From a virus: 26,279 nucleotides of DNA. Below the pieces are notes generated by a model. It saw only the letters and a list, made by a program, of their open reading frames with translations. It made no database searches and was not told the origin of the DNA. Location of the stretch: the IMG/VR virus record IMGVR_UViG_3300006810_000328, positions 1 to 26,279 of that record; one strand, written 5' to 3'. This document shows, piece by piece, positions 15,194 to 20,570 of this stretch. The position numbers were made by a program, and so were the translations under genes. Numbering within the stretch: position 1 is the stretch's first letter; each line of letters begins with the position of its first letter.

Positions 15194-16699
15194 ATGGCAG
15201 GGAAAATTAGAAATACAAATTTAAATCAGAGTGTAATATCTGGTCATACTGAAAATGTCACTGGCCAAGTTGCTACTGATGATAAAGTTTTAATATTTGA
15301 TACGAGTACAAATAGTATTAGAAAAACAAATACATCAAATATAGGTCTTCAAGCACCTACAATTACAAATGTTTCTCCAACTTCAGTTCAAAGATTAGAA
15401 GGAGCAGGAACAGTGACTATCACAGTCACAGGTACAGGTTTTAATGCTGGTACTACAGCAAAATTAATCACTAATGGTGGTTCAAACGTTTCTTTTAACT
15501 CTGTCACTATTGATTCAGAAAGTCAATTAACTTGTGTTGCAAATAGATCAGTATTTTTAAATGCTAATGAACCTTATGATGTAAACGTTGTCAATGGTAG
15601 TGGTTTAAGTGTCACTGCTGAAAATCAAATTAACGTAGATGGCGCTCCTGTGTTTGTCACAGCTGCAGGTTCTTTAGGTTCTACTAGAGGTGGTGGAGAT
15701 TTTATAATTGAGGCTTACGATCCTGAATCAGGAAGTGATCCATCTTTTGTACTTGAATCAGGTTCATTTCCTCCAGGTATGAGTATTACAAATATTGACT
15801 CTGGAAGATGTACAATTGGTGGGGTAATTTCACCTACGCCTTCAAGTGATACTACATACACATTTACAATTAAAGCAAATGATGCAAACTCAAACGTATC
15901 ATTTAGAGAATTTTCAATTACAGCATTAGGTCCAAGTTATACAACATTTACAGCAGATGGTACTTTTAGTGTACCAAGTGGTTTAACAGCTGTTGATGTA
16001 CTTGTAGTTGCTGGTGGCGGTGGATCGCAAGGTTTACCAGGTTCAGGTATTAATAACCCTGACCACATTGGAAACAATGCTGGTGGTGGTGCCGGCGGAC
16101 TAATCTTTATGCCAGGTTATCCAGTGACACCAGGTGGAACAGTTTCAGTGACTGTTGGTAATGGAGGGTCAGGTAGTTCAGGACAAGATTCAGTATTCGG
16201 AACACTAACTGCAGATGGTGGTGGATCTGGAAAAATGGGATTCTACATTATTGGATACCAACCAGGAACACCAGGTGGTTCTGGTGGTGGCGGAGGCCGA
16301 GGAAGAGACTCTGGAGGCCCTGCAGGTACTGGTCAACAACCAACTCAACCAGGTAATTCAGGAGCATACGGCTTCGGAAATCCAGGTGGTTCCCAAGGTG
16401 GTGGGGGCGGTGGCGCTCAACAACCAGGTGCACCAGGAACTGGTGGTAAAGGTGGTGATGGTAGAGCATACACTATCGGAGATGGTTCAACTCCAGTCGT
16501 ATACGCTGGTGGCGGTGGTGGAGTATCTGGTGTAGGCGGAGACGGTGGCGGTGGCCCTAATCCAGCACCTACTGTACCAAATCCAAAAGACGGTCTCGCT
16601 AATAGAGGCGGTGGTGGAAGAGGTGGTTCTCAATCAGCTGGTCCAGAAAACGGTCCTAAATCAGATGGTGGTTCTGGCGTAGTTATCGTCAAAACATAA
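15194..16699 (+). CDS. Modular adhesin: IPT/TIG, Ig-like and Gly-rich C-terminal domain (501 aa)
   Basis: Probable receptor-binding or fibre-tip protein. Order: an N-terminal attachment segment with 'DDKVLIFDTSTNSIRKT' (about 29-45), typical of marine phage fibres; an IPT/TIG-type Ig fold (about 54-148, 'APTITNVSPTSV', 'TVTGTGFNAGTTAKL'); a second Ig-like He_PIG-type domain (about 151-245, 'SGSFPPGMSITN', 'YTFTIKANDA'); then from about 247 a 'YTTFTADGTFSVPSG..AVDVLVVAGGGGSQ' opening and about 250 residues rich in Gly with runs of GGGGG, closing with GGSGVVIVKT. The Gly-rich domain is a known phage family. Polyglycine-II packing, as in gp38 adhesins of S16-type phages, is a plausible structure but is inference. 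Many Pro-Gly steps occur. Local GC is higher than in neighbours because of Gly codons. A strong terminator follows. Confidence 0.82.
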   Translation: MAGKIRNTNLNQSVISGHTENVTGQVATDDKVLIFDTSTNSIRKTNTSNIGLQAPTITNVSPTSVQRLEGAGTVTITVTGTGFNAGTTAKLITNGGSNVSFNSVTIDSESQLTCVANRSVFLNANEPYDVNVVNGSGLSVTAENQINVDGAPVFVTAAGSLGSTRGGGDFIIEAYDPESGSDPSFVLESGSFPPGMSITNIDSGRCTIGGVISPTPSSDTTYTFTIKANDANSNVSFREFSITALGPSYTTFTADGTFSVPSGLTAVDVLVVAGGGGSQGLPGSGINNPDHIGNNAGGGAGGLIFMPGYPVTPGGTVSVTVGNGGSGSSGQDSVFGTLTADGGGSGKMGFYIIGYQPGTPGGSGGGGGRGRDSGGPAGTGQQPTQPGNSGAYGFGNPGGSQGGGGGGAQQPGAPGTGGKGGDGRAYTIGDGSTPVVYAGGGGGVSGVGGDGGGGPNPAPTVPNPKDGLANRGGGGRGGSQSAGPENGPKSDGGSGVVIVKT

Positions 16700-16705
16700 A
16701 AAATT

Positions 16706-16736
16706 AAAAAAGGGCGTCTTAAATGGCGCCCTTTTT
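16706..16736 (+). terminator. Intrinsic terminator after the adhesin gene
   Basis: Arms GGGCGTC (712-718 of the 16 kb block) and GGCGCCC (725-731) pair over seven base pairs with one G-T wobble around the loop TTAAAT. A5 before and T5 after extend the stem and provide the U-tract. It is the only clear GC-rich hairpin with a T-run that I saw in the window. Because it is flanked by A and T runs it could also work on the opposite strand. Confidence 0.88.
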
Positions 16737-16743
16737 GTATCTA

Positions 16744-16751
16744 CATAAATA
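16744..16751 (+). promoter_or_regulatory. Late-promoter-like box CATAAATA before the oxygenase cassette
   Basis: One mismatch from TATAAATA, placed eight bases after the terminator and 35 bases before the next start, which has a good AGAGGAG ribosome site (16771-16777). Variants with a changed first base are tolerated in T4-like late promoters. The terminator/promoter arrangement makes the following genes an independent unit. Confidence 0.5.
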
Positions 16752-16786: not shown

Positions 16787-17158
16787 ATGGCAAGTGAAGA
16801 CACAATACAAAAAGTATTTAACCAAGACTTACTAAACAACGAAGACTTTTTAAGAATTATTAGAGAACTAATATCTGATTTAGAAAAAAGACCTGGTATA
16901 CCAGCGGATATGGTTGCTCAAGAATTAAAACAAAAGTTTAAATTAAAAGATATACCATCATTAGATTTAAGTAAAAATCTTTGGCATCAATGTACTGATA
17001 ATATACCTAATTTTGAAGGTATGCCACAAGGATATAGAATTACTATAAAAGAGGGTGGGAAAAAAGTAAAAATACCATTATTAGCATATACAGTTGATTT
17101 AGGACACGGTGAAGATATTATTAAAAAGATAGTTGAGAATTATAATAAAATAAAATAA
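16787..17158 (+). CDS. Uncharacterised 123-residue protein heading the oxygenase cassette
   Basis: I do not recognise this family. The protein starts with an acidic helical part ('EDTIQKVFNQDLLNNEDFLRIIRELISDLEKR', about 4-35) followed by 'IPADMVAQELKQKFKL' and a compact C-terminal part ('NFEGMPQGYRITIKEGGKKVKIPLLAYTVDLG'). There is no signal peptide, membrane segment or obvious catalytic motif, so it looks like a small soluble alpha/beta protein. It has the best ribosome site of the cassette and lies first after the promoter-like box, 16 bases ahead of five oxygenase-like genes, so it is probably co-transcribed with them. A partner, adaptor or substrate role is conceivable but unsupported. 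Confidence 0.7.
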   Translation: MASEDTIQKVFNQDLLNNEDFLRIIRELISDLEKRPGIPADMVAQELKQKFKLKDIPSLDLSKNLWHQCTDNIPNFEGMPQGYRITIKEGGKKVKIPLLAYTVDLGHGEDIIKKIVENYNKIK

Positions 17159-17174
17159 TATTATAATTTATATT

Positions 17175-17951
17175 ATGCAGAATCATTTTAGTTATTATTA
17201 TTTTAAGTCTGCTTTAACACCAGATCAATGTCAACGTATAATTGATTACGGTAATTCTTTAATTGAAAAAGAAAAAAAGCAAGGTCATAGTACAGCTGCT
17301 GTGACATTTGGAAATAATCATAAACAAGCTTTTGATGAAAAAGGTATTAATGTTCAGCCTTTAGGTGATAAAACACACGAAGATGTACAGAAAGAATTAA
17401 ATACTGATATTACTACAGGCAAAACTTATGTTAGAGATAGTGAAGTTGCTTGGTTTAATGATCAGTGGGTGTATGATCTAATTTGGCCTTTTCTAACCGA
17501 AGCAAATGAAAAATCTGGTTGGAGATATGATTTAGATTTTGGAGAAGATTTCCAATTTACAAAATATGGATTAAATCAATTTTATGGTTGGCATTCTGAC
17601 GGAGGGGGTTGTCATATGAATGCTTACAAAAGATTAATTCCTGGTGTGACGCCAAAAAATAAAAATGGAGAGTATGATTCTCATTATACATCTAATCAAA
17701 ATTTAATAGGTAAAATAAGAAAAATATCTATGACTATTAATTTAAATAAACCTGGTGAATATGAGGGAGGTAATTTAAAATTTGATTATGGTCCACACGC
17801 AGAGGGAAAAAGATTCCACGAGTGTGAAGAAATAAGACCTCAAGGCTCTATTATATTCTTTCCATCATATACATATCATCAAGTCACTCCAGTGACAAAG
17901 GGTACAAGATATTCTTTAGTATTATGGATATGTGGAAAACCTTTTAGATAA
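17175..17951 (+). CDS. 2OG-Fe(II) oxygenase 1, prolyl-4-hydroxylase-like
   Basis: These enzymes use Fe(II), O2 and 2-oxoglutarate to hydroxylate a substrate, releasing CO2 and succinate. In this 258-residue protein the facial triad reads His140-x-Asp142 in 'FYGWHSDGGG' and His235 in 'FFPSYTYHQVTPV', with Arg245 in 'KGTRYSLVLWICG' as the 2OG-binding arginine. 'ISMTINLNKPGEYEGGNLKF' (about 184-203) is the core strand region typical of the P4Hc/PKHD hydroxylases. All key residues are present, so it should be active. No Shine-Dalgarno sequence is visible before the ATG in the AT-only 16-base gap. The substrate is unknown; P4Hc-type relatives act on protein side chains. Confidence 0.88.
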   Translation: MQNHFSYYYFKSALTPDQCQRIIDYGNSLIEKEKKQGHSTAAVTFGNNHKQAFDEKGINVQPLGDKTHEDVQKELNTDITTGKTYVRDSEVAWFNDQWVYDLIWPFLTEANEKSGWRYDLDFGEDFQFTKYGLNQFYGWHSDGGGCHMNAYKRLIPGVTPKNKNGEYDSHYTSNQNLIGKIRKISMTINLNKPGEYEGGNLKFDYGPHAEGKRFHECEEIRPQGSIIFFPSYTYHQVTPVTKGTRYSLVLWICGKPFR

Positions 17952-17977
17952 AACTAAATATGAAAAAAGGAAACGAA

Positions 17978-18742
17978 ATGGAAACAGAAAATCAAACCAA
18001 ACACCCTGCCGCTAAATTCTTTGAAGAAAATGGTTGGGTAAAAATAGAAAAAGTGATTGATAGTAAAATGGCTTTTTTATTATATCATCACGTACAGTTG
18101 GCAGCAACAAGATTAACATATTTGGATAATTTTTTAGGATTTGGAAATTATAATACAGATGTGTGGGGTAGTTTTACAGATAAACAAGCACCAGGTGATT
18201 TTAGTAGATATGGTGATTTAATTTTTGACAGTTTAATGAATTTAGTATTAGGACAAATGGAAAAATATACAGGTAAAAAATTAGTGCCTACATACACATA
18301 TCATAGATTATATACAAGAGGAACAGAGTTAACAAGACATAAAGATAGACCTAGTTGTGAAATATCTACTACAATGTGTTTAGGATACGATATAGATAAT
18401 TTAGATAAACAAAAATATTCAAATTGGAATTGGCCTATGTATGTTGGTCCTAAAACTGGTGAATTGGGAACAAAAGGAACTCCAATAACTTTGGAACCAG
18501 GTGATATGATTATCTATCGTGGTTGTGAAGTGGAACACTGGCGTGAACCATATATTGGAAATAATCACGCACAAGTATTTTTACATTATAATGAAAAAGA
18601 TGGAAAAAATCATAACGTATATGATGGAAGACCTTGTTTAGGAGTTCCAAGATTAGTTGATACATTAAAACAAAATTATAATGTAGAAGAAAAAGAAGAA
18701 GACATTTTTTTTAAACAAGAGGAAAATCAAATAGTATATTAA
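17978..18742 (+). CDS. 2OG-Fe(II) oxygenase 2
   Basis: A 254-residue double-stranded beta-helix oxygenase. The triad reads His121-x-Asp123 in 'ELTRHKDRPSCE' and His187 in 'GCEVEHWREP', preceded by the 'LEPGDMIIYRG' strand that normally precedes the distal His. 'VPTYTYHRLYTRGTEL' is the conserved strand before HxD. The usual 2OG-binding Arg about ten residues after the distal His is not obvious in 'NNHAQVFLHYN'. I chose the ATG at 17978 because an AAAAGGA ribosome site lies seven bases upstream; an ATG at 17960 is also in frame and would add six residues. The N-terminal 'HPAAKFFEENGWVKIEKVID' fits the phytanoyl-hydroxylase-like class. Substrate unknown. Confidence 0.82.
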   Translation: METENQTKHPAAKFFEENGWVKIEKVIDSKMAFLLYHHVQLAATRLTYLDNFLGFGNYNTDVWGSFTDKQAPGDFSRYGDLIFDSLMNLVLGQMEKYTGKKLVPTYTYHRLYTRGTELTRHKDRPSCEISTTMCLGYDIDNLDKQKYSNWNWPMYVGPKTGELGTKGTPITLEPGDMIIYRGCEVEHWREPYIGNNHAQVFLHYNEKDGKNHNVYDGRPCLGVPRLVDTLKQNYNVEEKEEDIFFKQEENQIVY

Positions 18743-18746
18743 TAAA

Positions 18747-19406
18747 GTGAATAAAATAGATTTTGAAAATAGAAAAAATATACCTCAAGTTTGGAATATA
18801 AGAACAATAAAAGATAATCCAATGTTTCCATTTGTTCTTATAGAAAATTGGTATACACCTGAAGAAGAAAAAGCAGTTTGGAAAGAATTAGAATATTATT
18901 CTAGTAATCCTATTGATAGAGCCGAAGGTGGTATTGTAGCGAGAGATGAAGATGGAAAAGAAAAGGGAAAACATTATAGATTTTATTTAGATAAAATTTA
19001 TTCACAACAGGGAAGAGAACAATCTAATATTTTAAATTTTACATACAAACAAAAAATGTTAGAATTACATCATAAGATAAATGAATGTGGTCACTATGGA
19101 AGATCATTTTTTTCAAGTAAAAGTATTACTTCTTTTGTATCTTATTATGAAAATAATGATTTTTATAATTCTCATTATGACTCTTATCACTGGACAAATT
19201 TAGTTTGGTTTGTGAAAGAACCTAAAAAATTTGAAGGTGGCGATTTAATATTTGAAGAATCAAATACAAAAATAACTTTAAAACATAATAGAGCAATTAT
19301 GTTTCCCTCAATGTTTTTACATAAATCAACACCTATTAAATTTAATCAACAATCAAATGGAAGTGAAGGAAAATTTACCATAACTCATTTCTATTATGCA
19401 GATTAG
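18747..19406 (+). CDS. 2OG-Fe(II) oxygenase 3 (GTG start)
   Basis: A 219-residue protein that starts with GTG four bases after the previous stop, so it is probably coupled; no ATG before Met26 is available and the N-terminal residues fit the gene limits. The triad reads His143-x-Asp145 in 'FYNSHYDSYHW' and His192 in 'IMFPSMFLHKSTP', with 'FEGGDLIFEES' (162-172) as the intervening strand typical of PKHD-type hydroxylases. A 2OG-binding Arg after the distal His is not clear; Lys209 in 'GKFTITHFYY' occupies the likely place. The N-terminal 'FVLIENWYTPEEEKAVWKELE' is a common opening for phage oxygenases. Base composition is more AT-rich than in the structural genes. Confidence 0.8.
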   Translation: MNKIDFENRKNIPQVWNIRTIKDNPMFPFVLIENWYTPEEEKAVWKELEYYSSNPIDRAEGGIVARDEDGKEKGKHYRFYLDKIYSQQGREQSNILNFTYKQKMLELHHKINECGHYGRSFFSSKSITSFVSYYENNDFYNSHYDSYHWTNLVWFVKEPKKFEGGDLIFEESNTKITLKHNRAIMFPSMFLHKSTPIKFNQQSNGSEGKFTITHFYYAD

Positions 19407-19413
19407 AAATATA

Positions 19414-20034
19414 ATGATTAGTCCTATAAATTATAAAAAATTTGAATTGTTTCCAACGCCTGTTTACAAATCAAAAATAGAAGTACAAGATGAATGGTTG
19501 AAATTGTGTGAGACCACAGAATACGAAAGAATGAAGACAGGAAATGGTGATATTTCTAAAAATAGAAAGATATTAAATGATTTAAATATAAAAAATGATA
19601 TAGAAGATCATCTAAATGTTTATGTTAGAGATTGGTTAAAAGTACATTGGAAAACTGAATTTTATTTAACATCATCTTGGTTAGTAAAACACAAAAAAGG
19701 AGATTGGGCACAATTACATCATCATGCTAATTCCTTAATTAGTGGTGTATATTATTTAAAAACACCTGAAAATTCTGGTAATATAAAGTTTCATAAATTT
19801 TTTAATAAAAACTTATTTGATGAAACTTTACGATTTGATTTTACAGATGATAATTTTATAAATGCTGAAAGTGTGAGTTTTGATGTAAACGCAGGAGATA
19901 TAATATTATTCCCATCTCACTTAACTCATTCTGTAGATGAAAATTTTAATGATGAAACAAGATATTCACTTGCGTTCAATTATTTTTGTAGAGGGTCATT
20001 TGGTAAAGATGAATATGCATTGACTATTAAATAA
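19414..20034 (+). CDS. 2OG-Fe(II) oxygenase 4, TIGR02466-like with altered HxD
   Basis: A 206-residue protein (numbered from the ATG at 19414; an in-frame ATG at 19396 would overlap the previous gene and add six residues, and neither has a clear ribosome site). 'FELFPTPVYKS' at the N-terminus and 'HHHANSLISGVYYLKTPENSGNIKF' (about 102-126) are marks of the TIGR02466 putative oxygenase family common in marine phages. The distal 'FPSHLTHSVDENFNDETRYSLAFNYF' supplies His172 and Arg183. The Asp/Glu of HxD is replaced: the motif reads HHHAN, so the second ligand would be His or Asn, as is usual in this family. Activity has to be regarded as unproven. Ends in TAATG overlap with the next gene. Confidence 0.78.
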   Translation: MISPINYKKFELFPTPVYKSKIEVQDEWLKLCETTEYERMKTGNGDISKNRKILNDLNIKNDIEDHLNVYVRDWLKVHWKTEFYLTSSWLVKHKKGDWAQLHHHANSLISGVYYLKTPENSGNIKFHKFFNKNLFDETLRFDFTDDNFINAESVSFDVNAGDIILFPSHLTHSVDENFNDETRYSLAFNYFCRGSFGKDEYALTIK

Positions 20035-20555
20035 TGAAAAATTTTATATTTGTAAAAGAAAATGTTTTAGATGAAAAAGAATGTGAAGATATTATAAAAT
20101 ATTGTAGCGATAAAACTAATCCAAGTGATTTTGATTATTTGAATTATGATTGTTATGATTTTGATAACTCACATTATCTTTTTAAAAAAATATTACCAAT
20201 ATTACAAGAATATAAAAATACATATCCTGAAATAGATAAAACGGCATCTATTTGGGATTTAACTAGTTTAAGATTTAAAAGTTTTGAACCAGGTAAAGGT
20301 TATACTGGTTGGCATTCAGAACATTGTTTATCAAAACCTGATAGAGTTTTAAATGTTCAAATTTATCTATCTAATCATAGATGTGGAACTGAATTTTATA
20401 ATGGTGATGTAATAATGTCAAAAGTAGGTAAGTTGGCCATCTTCCCATCATACTTTACTCACACACACAGAGGTCAAATTTGTCCTGATAATAAACCTAG
20501 ATATATAATAACAGGTTATGTGACATTTATGAAAAAAGGACCTGAAGAAGACTAA
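20034..20555 (+). CDS. 2OG-Fe(II) oxygenase 5 with HxE ligand pair
   Basis: The smallest of the five (173 residues), coupled to the preceding gene by TAATG. It has a typical opening ('FIFVKENVLDEKECEDIIKYC'), a strand 'LTSLRFKSFEPGKGYTGWHSEH' with His94-x-Glu96, 'NVQIYLSNHRCGTEFYNGD' in the core, and the distal His143 in 'IFPSYFTHTHRG', with Arg156 in 'KPRYIITGYV' as the likely 2OG anchor. Glu instead of Asp in the facial triad is accepted in some members of the superfamily. It is compact, close to the minimal jelly-roll catalytic core. The substrate is unknown. It closes the oxygenase cassette before a new promoter-like box. Confidence 0.8.
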   Translation: MKNFIFVKENVLDEKECEDIIKYCSDKTNPSDFDYLNYDCYDFDNSHYLFKKILPILQEYKNTYPEIDKTASIWDLTSLRFKSFEPGKGYTGWHSEHCLSKPDRVLNVQIYLSNHRCGTEFYNGDVIMSKVGKLAIFPSYFTHTHRGQICPDNKPRYIITGYVTFMKKGPEED

Positions 20556-20562
20556 ATAAACT

Positions 20563-20570
20563 AATAAATA
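20563..20570 (+). promoter_or_regulatory. Late-promoter-like box AATAAATA
   Basis: One mismatch from TATAAATA, in the 31-base gap after the oxygenases and 17 bases before the start at 20587, with AAAAGG between as the ribosome site. The geometry matches the exact boxes elsewhere, but AT-rich gaps produce such near matches easily. Confidence 0.4.

Follow-up and report, generated by a model that had tools for sequence, protein, structure and literature searches.

Five divergent 2OG-Fe(II) oxygenase-like genes form a cassette beside a glycine-rich fibre-tip gene in a T4-like marine phage

Introduction

Multiple 2-oxoglutarate (2OG)-Fe(II) oxygenases have already been published for cyanophages (PMC3037559, PMC9602691), with 24 of them in cyanophage S-SCSM1 (PMC9602691), and proteins of the family phrog_61 have been assigned EGLN3-like structures (PMC12774648). 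In pelagiphages, oxygenases are often found near, though not adjacent to, a "ferrochelatase", and the type that corresponds to our ox2 has been read as a haem enzyme (Wittmers 2022, PMC9599517). Pelagimyophages carry a host-recognition island rich in glycosyltransferases (PMC7029224). For cyanophage Pam3, a glycine-rich domain of gp24 has been described as the distal tip and proposed receptor binder, which the small chaperone gp25 assembles (PMC9608196). Genes for multiple 2OG oxygenases are among the commonest unexplained genes of abundant marine phages and are usually filed under metabolism or DNA repair.

Here we analyze five consecutive genes (ox1 to ox5, positions 17175-20555) of the IMG/VR virus record IMGVR_UViG_3300006810_000328. 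The whole stretch of 26,279 nucleotides (nt), referred to as the window, belongs to a T4-like marine phage and holds genes for its baseplate wedge and fibres. Our analysis confirms all five open reading frames (ORFs) as 2OG-Fe(II) oxygenase-like and reveals that clusters of this type recurrently follow genes for glycine-rich fibre tips. By its oxygenase genes, the closest isolate is Pelagibacter phage Mosig EXVC030M (MT647606), which has six oxygenase-like genes at the place of the window's five. Two further IMG/VR contigs hold near-identical stretches, and IMG/VR searches with ox5 or with the 123-amino-acid (aa) gene ahead of ox1 returned few relatives.

Results

Five neighbouring genes with oxygenase folds and intact active sites

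The ORF list places the five genes in a row on the plus strand:

17175-17951, plus strand: ox1, 2OG-Fe(II) oxygenase, PKHD-hydroxylase-like; H140, D142, H235, R245
17960-18742, plus strand: ox2, 2OG-Fe(II) oxygenase, "ferrochelatase" in relatives; H127, D129, H193
18747-19406, plus strand: ox3, GTG start, 2OG-Fe(II) oxygenase; H143, D145, H192, K209
19396-20034, plus strand: ox4, 2OG-FeII_Oxy_5 family; H108-x-H110, H178, R189
20034-20555, plus strand: ox5, small 2OG-Fe(II) oxygenase; H94, E96, H143, R156

The original prediction that these neighbours are oxygenase-like holds for each of them: three lie above the Pfam cut-offs, ox5 lies just under, and ox2 is recognized through its model. For ox1 (PF13640, 1e-14; PDB profile matches 3dkq, 1e-7, and PiuC 9ghl, 3e-7), ox3 (PF13640, 6e-7; 3dkq, 8e-5) and ox4 (PF13759, 2e-22; 2rg4, 2e-15), Pfam matches above cut-off and PDB profile matches together indicate the jelly-roll (double-stranded beta-helix) core. 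The profiles of ox1 and ox3 match PKHD-type hydroxylases and, more weakly, prolyl-4-hydroxylases (P4H). The Pfam match of ox5 (PF13640, 5e-5) scores 24.6 bits against a cut-off of 27, and its PHROG match is to phrog_61 (6e-21), the family that also holds ox1 and ox3; ox4 belongs to phrog_81, and both families are named 2OG-Fe(II) oxygenase.

Structure prediction, which had been suggested as a check, gave ox2 and ox5 prolyl-hydroxylase folds, and in both the jelly-roll core is recovered by AlphaFold and Foldseek. The ox2 model (predicted local distance difference test score, pLDDT, 89.8; built on 59 aligned sequences) has Pseudomonas P4H 4j25 as its best Foldseek match (E 7e-10). In VIA-align, its leading matches SnoN, P4H and PHD2 reach Z 16-17 and are tied within about 1 (4j25, 16.5; SnoN, 17.2). 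The ox5 model (pLDDT 84) is best matched by the viral collagen prolyl hydroxylase of PBCV-1 (5c5u, E 2e-8). The likeness of ox2 and ox5 to prolyl hydroxylases is one of modelled fold alone.

The metal triad takes the form HxD...H in ox1, ox2 and ox3 and HxE...H in ox5, and family alignments reveal that these sites are intact. Conserved are H140 and D142 (134/134) with H235 and R245 (131/134) in ox1; H127 and D129 (120/120) with H193 (119/120) in ox2; H143 (52/52) with D145, H192 and R/K209 (51/52 each) in ox3; and H94, D/E96 and R/K156 (40/40 each) with H143 (36/40) in ox5. In ox4, H108, H110, H178 and R189 are invariant among 33 relatives (33/33) and N112 is not conserved. Since this HxH...H...R pattern comes without a conserved carboxylate at position 112, the iron site of ox4 may consist of three histidines. 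A basic residue past the distal histidine is a candidate for 2OG binding in ox1 (R245), ox3 (K209), ox4 (R189) and ox5 (R156); ox2 has no Arg or Lys at the usual place, and its R116, R195 and Q205 are invariant. The ligand numbers first proposed were right for ox1, ox3 and ox5 and six too low for ox2 and ox4 (correctly H127/D129/H193 and H108-H110/H178), because a start six codons downstream had been assumed. Fe(II)- and 2OG-dependent turnover, the activity of this superfamily, is predicted for the five proteins.

Oxygenases under the names of other enzymes

PHROG places ox2 in phrog_2954, which is named "ferrochelatase". Neither ox2 nor two homologues has any Pfam match, including to the ferrochelatase (HemH) family, which we take to be PF00762. 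The lack of a Pfam match and the 2OG-oxygenase fold of the model rule out ox2 as a ferrochelatase, and on this modelled fold the "ferrochelatase" genes of these clusters are oxygenase-like. Removing the name also removes a supposed iron or haem link that rested on it.

The "endonuclease V" genes of these clusters (phrog_274) are probably oxygenase-like as well, as judged from their sequences. They group with the oxygenases in profile searches, and two of them, Mosig 00058 and S-SM1 054, have no Pfam match; a true endonuclease V would presumably match the T4 DenV domain. Three families, phrog_2954, phrog_3531 and phrog_274, carry the names "ferrochelatase" or "DNA endonuclease V" and nonetheless appear to be 2OG-oxygenase-like, and these database names have probably spread in error. 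We note that in S-SCSM1 (L242, 102203-103928) a "ferrochelatase"-annotated 2OG oxygenase matching ox1 adjoins an annotated GDP-fucose protein O-fucosyltransferase.

Old lineages kept functional

Recent duplication had been considered unlikely, and the comparisons agree: BLAST of the window's paralogues against each other gives a best E of 0.015, whereas ox1 to ox4 share 39-58% identity with their Mosig counterparts. A tree built from 94 homologues has one gene per genome both in the ox1 clade (16 genes, 16 genomes, support 0.95) and in the ox3 clade (12 genes, 12 genomes, support 1.0), so that the phylogeny proposed as a check also yields old, separate lineages. Recent tandem duplication is therefore ruled out, and the cassette is an assembly of old lineages without recent amplification. 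At a greater distance, iterated profile searches unite ox1, ox3, ox4, ox5 and the "endonuclease V" genes in one superfamily, with ox2 outside by sequence. A possible true local duplication is seen in S-SM1 (L005 18530-19646), where two ox2-type genes stand in tandem.

In the relative L165, all five genes recur in unchanged order at 68-81% identity. Against it, nonsynonymous divergence (dN, 0.14-0.23) is well below synonymous divergence (dS, 0.65-1.04) for ox1 to ox5, and all five genes have therefore been kept functional by purifying selection.

Layout and boundaries of the cassette

The five genes are tightly coupled, as originally described: 8 nt separate ox1 from ox2 and 4 nt separate ox2 from ox3, while ox3 and ox4 overlap by 11 nt and ox4 and ox5 by 1 nt (TAATG). 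The flanking features are as follows:

15194-16699, plus strand: fibre-tip/adhesin-like gene, glycine-rich, with TIG and Gly_rich_2 domains; proposed substrate
16707-16736, plus strand: intrinsic terminator, 12-bp stem, 6-nt loop, -19.4 kcal/mol, z -5.25; closes the fibre-tip gene
16744-16751, plus strand: T4-type late promoter-like motif CATAAATA, ATAAATA at 16745; precedes the cassette
16787-17158, plus strand: small protein gene, 123 aa, between fibre tip and oxygenases
20563-20570, plus strand: late promoter-like motif AATAAATA; start of the following fibre unit and boundary of the cassette

The terminator, missed by the automatic terminator scan, is shown by direct folding. It had been placed before the oxygenases; it is real, but it sits ahead of 16787-17158, the gene with which the unit actually begins. 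As both the terminator and the ATAAATA motif precede position 16787, the transcription unit spans 16787-20555.

We take ATAAATA, from general knowledge of T4-like phages, to be a late promoter motif. Of its 11 plus-strand copies, 10 fall in the window's intergenic gaps (506, 5377, 6136, 14447, 14519, 16745, 20564, 21195, 25313 and 25817), against 1.9 expected (0/2000 shuffles), and no minus-strand copy lies in these gaps. Judged by its sequence pattern, the array marks the transcription units of the window's baseplate and fibre region. The motif recurs at the equivalent place in Mosig (L002 15532), and its position suggests that the cassette would be transcribed late.

Oxygenase clusters follow glycine-rich tip genes

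The gene at 15194-16699 matches PF21722 (3e-17), PF01833 (7e-5) and phrog_2295 (1e-33), the last of which accounts for 19 of the 75 genes directly upstream of other oxygenase clusters. It shares 35% identity with the Mosig gene at L002 13980-15530, and a PDB sequence search with the glycine-rich tip found nothing significant.

This arrangement is directional. Upstream of clusters with at least three oxygenases, a glycine-rich ORF occurs at position -1 in 21/114, at -2 in 44/99 and at -3 in 17/83 cases; downstream, the counts are 0/103 at +1 and 1/78 at +2. After removal of redundancy, the upstream side holds such an ORF in 20/36 and the downstream side in 3/31. Among the 14 complete isolates with a PF21722 match, 12 have an oxygenase within 2.5 kb of it, compared with 3.3 under a rotation null (p=5e-5) that ignores shared ancestry and a joint preference for the fibre region. 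The neighbourhood recurs in both myophages and podophages.

Mosig, L013, L178, L008 and L165 each carry, at the equivalent place, an orthologue of the small protein gene at 16787-17158. This gene has a dN of 0.25 compared with a dS of 1.11, and its product may be a tip chaperone or assembly factor. Its family differs from phrog_7759 (L058:7038-7505 and about 40 relatives), proteins of about 150 aa with conserved Trp and Pro positions that stand directly behind glycine-rich tip genes in most sampled phages and are possibly tip chaperones. A sample of 67 loci anchored on phrog_7759, and so not chosen for oxygenases, has a glycine-rich gene upstream in 55, and in 28 of these 55 an oxygenase follows within two genes. 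The tip and the small protein therefore form a regular pair, with oxygenases as an optional addition behind it. Within this sample, the glycine-rich gene does not significantly predict an oxygenase (28/55 vs 3/12, Fisher p=0.12).

Clusters recur widely and vary in composition

The original prediction implied that five such neighbours are exceptional. In fact, rows of at least five recur in marine phages: our survey of oxygenase runs covers 209 non-duplicate loci, with a longest run, in uncultivated phages, of 11 under permissive calling and of 9 at >=50 bits. Weak calls of 41-50 bits are among the genes counted in the runs of 10-11, and one gene in L058 is without a PHROG match. Two to 18 oxygenases per genome are usual in the relatives searched: each of 18 complete isolates carries a number in this range, many of them outside the cluster. 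Composition and number vary widely, and ox1 precedes ox2 in 124/124 runs that hold both. In the survey of other phages proposed as a check, linked clusters recur in many marine phages, and many homologues are also scattered in the same genomes.

Some relatives' oxygenase clusters adjoin a tryptophan halogenase (PF04820) or a Nol-like carbamoyltransferase (L184:6142-7689, L013:12600-14198, L003:8507-9901), which suggests further tailoring chemistry in the same islands.

Proline in the tips

Glycine-rich windows near oxygenases have a median proline content of 8.0%, compared with 1.3-2.0% in those without (p ~1e-8). Window-type tips carry QPxQPG segments. Many of the windows near oxygenases have NTPPVSPPQG-like segments (a PP.SPPQG-type motif); at loci with this motif an oxygenase is present in 29/31, compared with 11/32 at loci without it. 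On the small-protein tree, however, the presence of an oxygenase switches only about five times, and 4 of 5 independent pairs favour the association (p=0.375), which is thus confounded with lineage. Despite the strong raw signal, proline enrichment failed phylogenetic correction and was dropped as independent proof of the substrate; we treat the contrast as a lead, not as evidence of substrate.

Discussion

Modification of fibre proteins fits the data best, because the clusters follow a tip gene, a late-type promoter precedes the cassette, and both modelled enzymes have protein prolyl hydroxylases as their best or near-best structure matches. We therefore tentatively favour, at a little less than even confidence, a cassette of late-expressed hydroxylases whose targets would be virion proteins of the phage itself, with the neighbouring glycine-rich tip (15194-16699) as the likeliest one. 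In this mechanism, (I) the adhesin, the small assembly-type protein and the oxygenases would be produced together late in infection, (II) the oxygenases would consume host 2OG, Fe(II) and O2, (III) they would hydroxylate tip residues, for example proline in its loops, before or during trimer folding, and (IV) hydroxylation would tune tip stability or receptor binding, with a possible effect on adsorption. If true, phage adhesins are modified by the phage's own hydroxylases, and receptor binding can change without a change in adhesin sequence. The tie between cluster and tip would thereby give the multi-oxygenase genes a direct, testable function.

The original prediction went further and suggested a joint task, perhaps successive modification of fibre proteins, nucleotides or host surface compounds. 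Its fibre-protein part fits best, but a fixed joint pathway is doubtful, because composition and number vary, no order except ox1-ox2 is near-universal, and many homologues are found at other places in the same genomes. A broader reading, possible but more doubtful than not, is that marine myo- and podophages share swappable banks of hydroxylases dedicated to the post-translational decoration of their own glycine- and proline-rich tips. Such banks would diversify receptor binding by side-chain chemistry instead of sequence change; they would also account for the large number of 2OG oxygenases that phages carry.

Several observations weigh against hydroxylation of the tip. About half of the sampled glycine-rich tips have no adjoining oxygenase, and modification is therefore not required for such tips. 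A PF21722 match is absent in 4 of the 18 oxygenase-bearing isolates, many homologous oxygenases stand apart from the clusters in the same genomes, the association with proline is confounded by lineage, and the structure matches of ox2 include small-molecule oxygenases such as SnoN. Linkage inside the host-recognition island could also reflect insertion hot-spots.

Some structural matches to small-molecule oxygenases speak for an unlikely alternative, in which the enzymes tailor host-surface molecules or glycans, for instance to block superinfection, together with the glycosyltransferases, carbamoyltransferases and halogenases of the same islands. The pelagimyophage host-recognition island is indeed rich in glycosyltransferases (PMC7029224), and oxygenase clusters have as direct neighbour a carbamoyltransferase in L013 and a tryptophan halogenase in L184. 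However, the scan of window genes recognized no glycosyltransferase, what recurs upstream of the clusters is a fibre-tip gene, and the late-type promoter suggests expression during virion building.

A rather improbable explanation is that the genes have no joint task and that the island is a hot-spot gathering unrelated oxygenases, each with its own target. The wide variation in composition among relatives and the homologues scattered in the same genomes would be expected of such a hot-spot, but the constant ox1-ox2 order (all 124 runs with both), the repetition of all five genes in order in L165 at 68-81% identity, and an association with a single side and a single type of neighbour would not.

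Little probability attaches to a metabolic role, proposed for cyanophages (Sullivan 2010, PMC3037559; S-SCSM1, PMC9602691), in which 2OG drawdown or succinate supply would steer host nitrogen and energy metabolism: one uncoupled enzyme would be enough for this, which leaves five divergent, separately conserved enzymes unexplained, as well as their position behind a fibre-tip gene and a late-type promoter. Least probable of all is AlkB-like or 5-methylcytosine (5mC)-oxidase-like modification or repair of nucleic acids, which has been proposed for phage 2OG oxygenases (PMC9146016) and would accord with profile matches of ox3 to the 5mC-modifying CMD1 (E 0.001) and of ox2 to Tet-like enzymes (only E 0.12). 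DNA modification was set aside, as these matches are weak. Protein hydroxylases are matched more strongly, by ox3 (3dkq, 8e-5) and by the models of ox2 and ox5 (prolyl hydroxylases), the scan of window genes recognized neither a methyltransferase nor a repair gene, and the genes lie in the virion late region.

Comparison with known systems

The tie between oxygenase clusters and glycine-rich fibre tips goes beyond the published statements we found, as does the oxygenase-like nature of the "ferrochelatase" and, probably, the "endonuclease V" genes. A search of the open-licence literature for tail fibres with hydroxylation or hydroxyproline returned no papers, which is weak evidence of novelty. 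Like the window with its tip gene and putative assembly factor, Pam3 pairs a glycine-rich distal tip with a small assembly protein (gp24/gp25); the available part of that report makes no mention of oxygenases or hydroxylation (PMC9608196). The nearest solved folds to ox5 and ox2 are the viral collagen prolyl hydroxylase of PBCV-1 (5c5t/5c5u) and the Pseudomonas P4H (4j25), at 10-17% identity.

Among phages, Mosig is closest in layout: a glycine-rich tip, a small protein, ox1, ox2, ox3 and ox4 follow in the same order, with the late-promoter motif in the same place. It differs in that an "endonuclease V"-named gene stands between ox2 and ox3, that ox4 is followed by one more oxygenase and then by haem oxygenase and PcyA, without ox5 there, and that the fib820 block lies elsewhere. 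Mosig also has a second island beside fibres (L002:1-6035), with Asp/Arg-hydroxylase-domain, fatty-acid desaturase, FMN reductase, taurine-dioxygenase-like and methylase genes. HTVC008M carries a comparable block of about five oxygenases on the strand opposite to its fibres. Pelagiphages of the HTVC023P type have linked ox1-like and ox2-like genes with glycine-rich tip genes upstream, but are podophages. The T4-like cyanophages hold the same families (T4-GC 412, 240, 611, 615), and the T4-GC 412-615 pair is ox1-ox2 in several isolates; their copies differ in being more scattered, and the papers gave them metabolic or DNA-repair roles. In sum, multiple 2OG oxygenases are themselves already known, and the five genes described here are a further case of a cluster type that recurs in marine phages.

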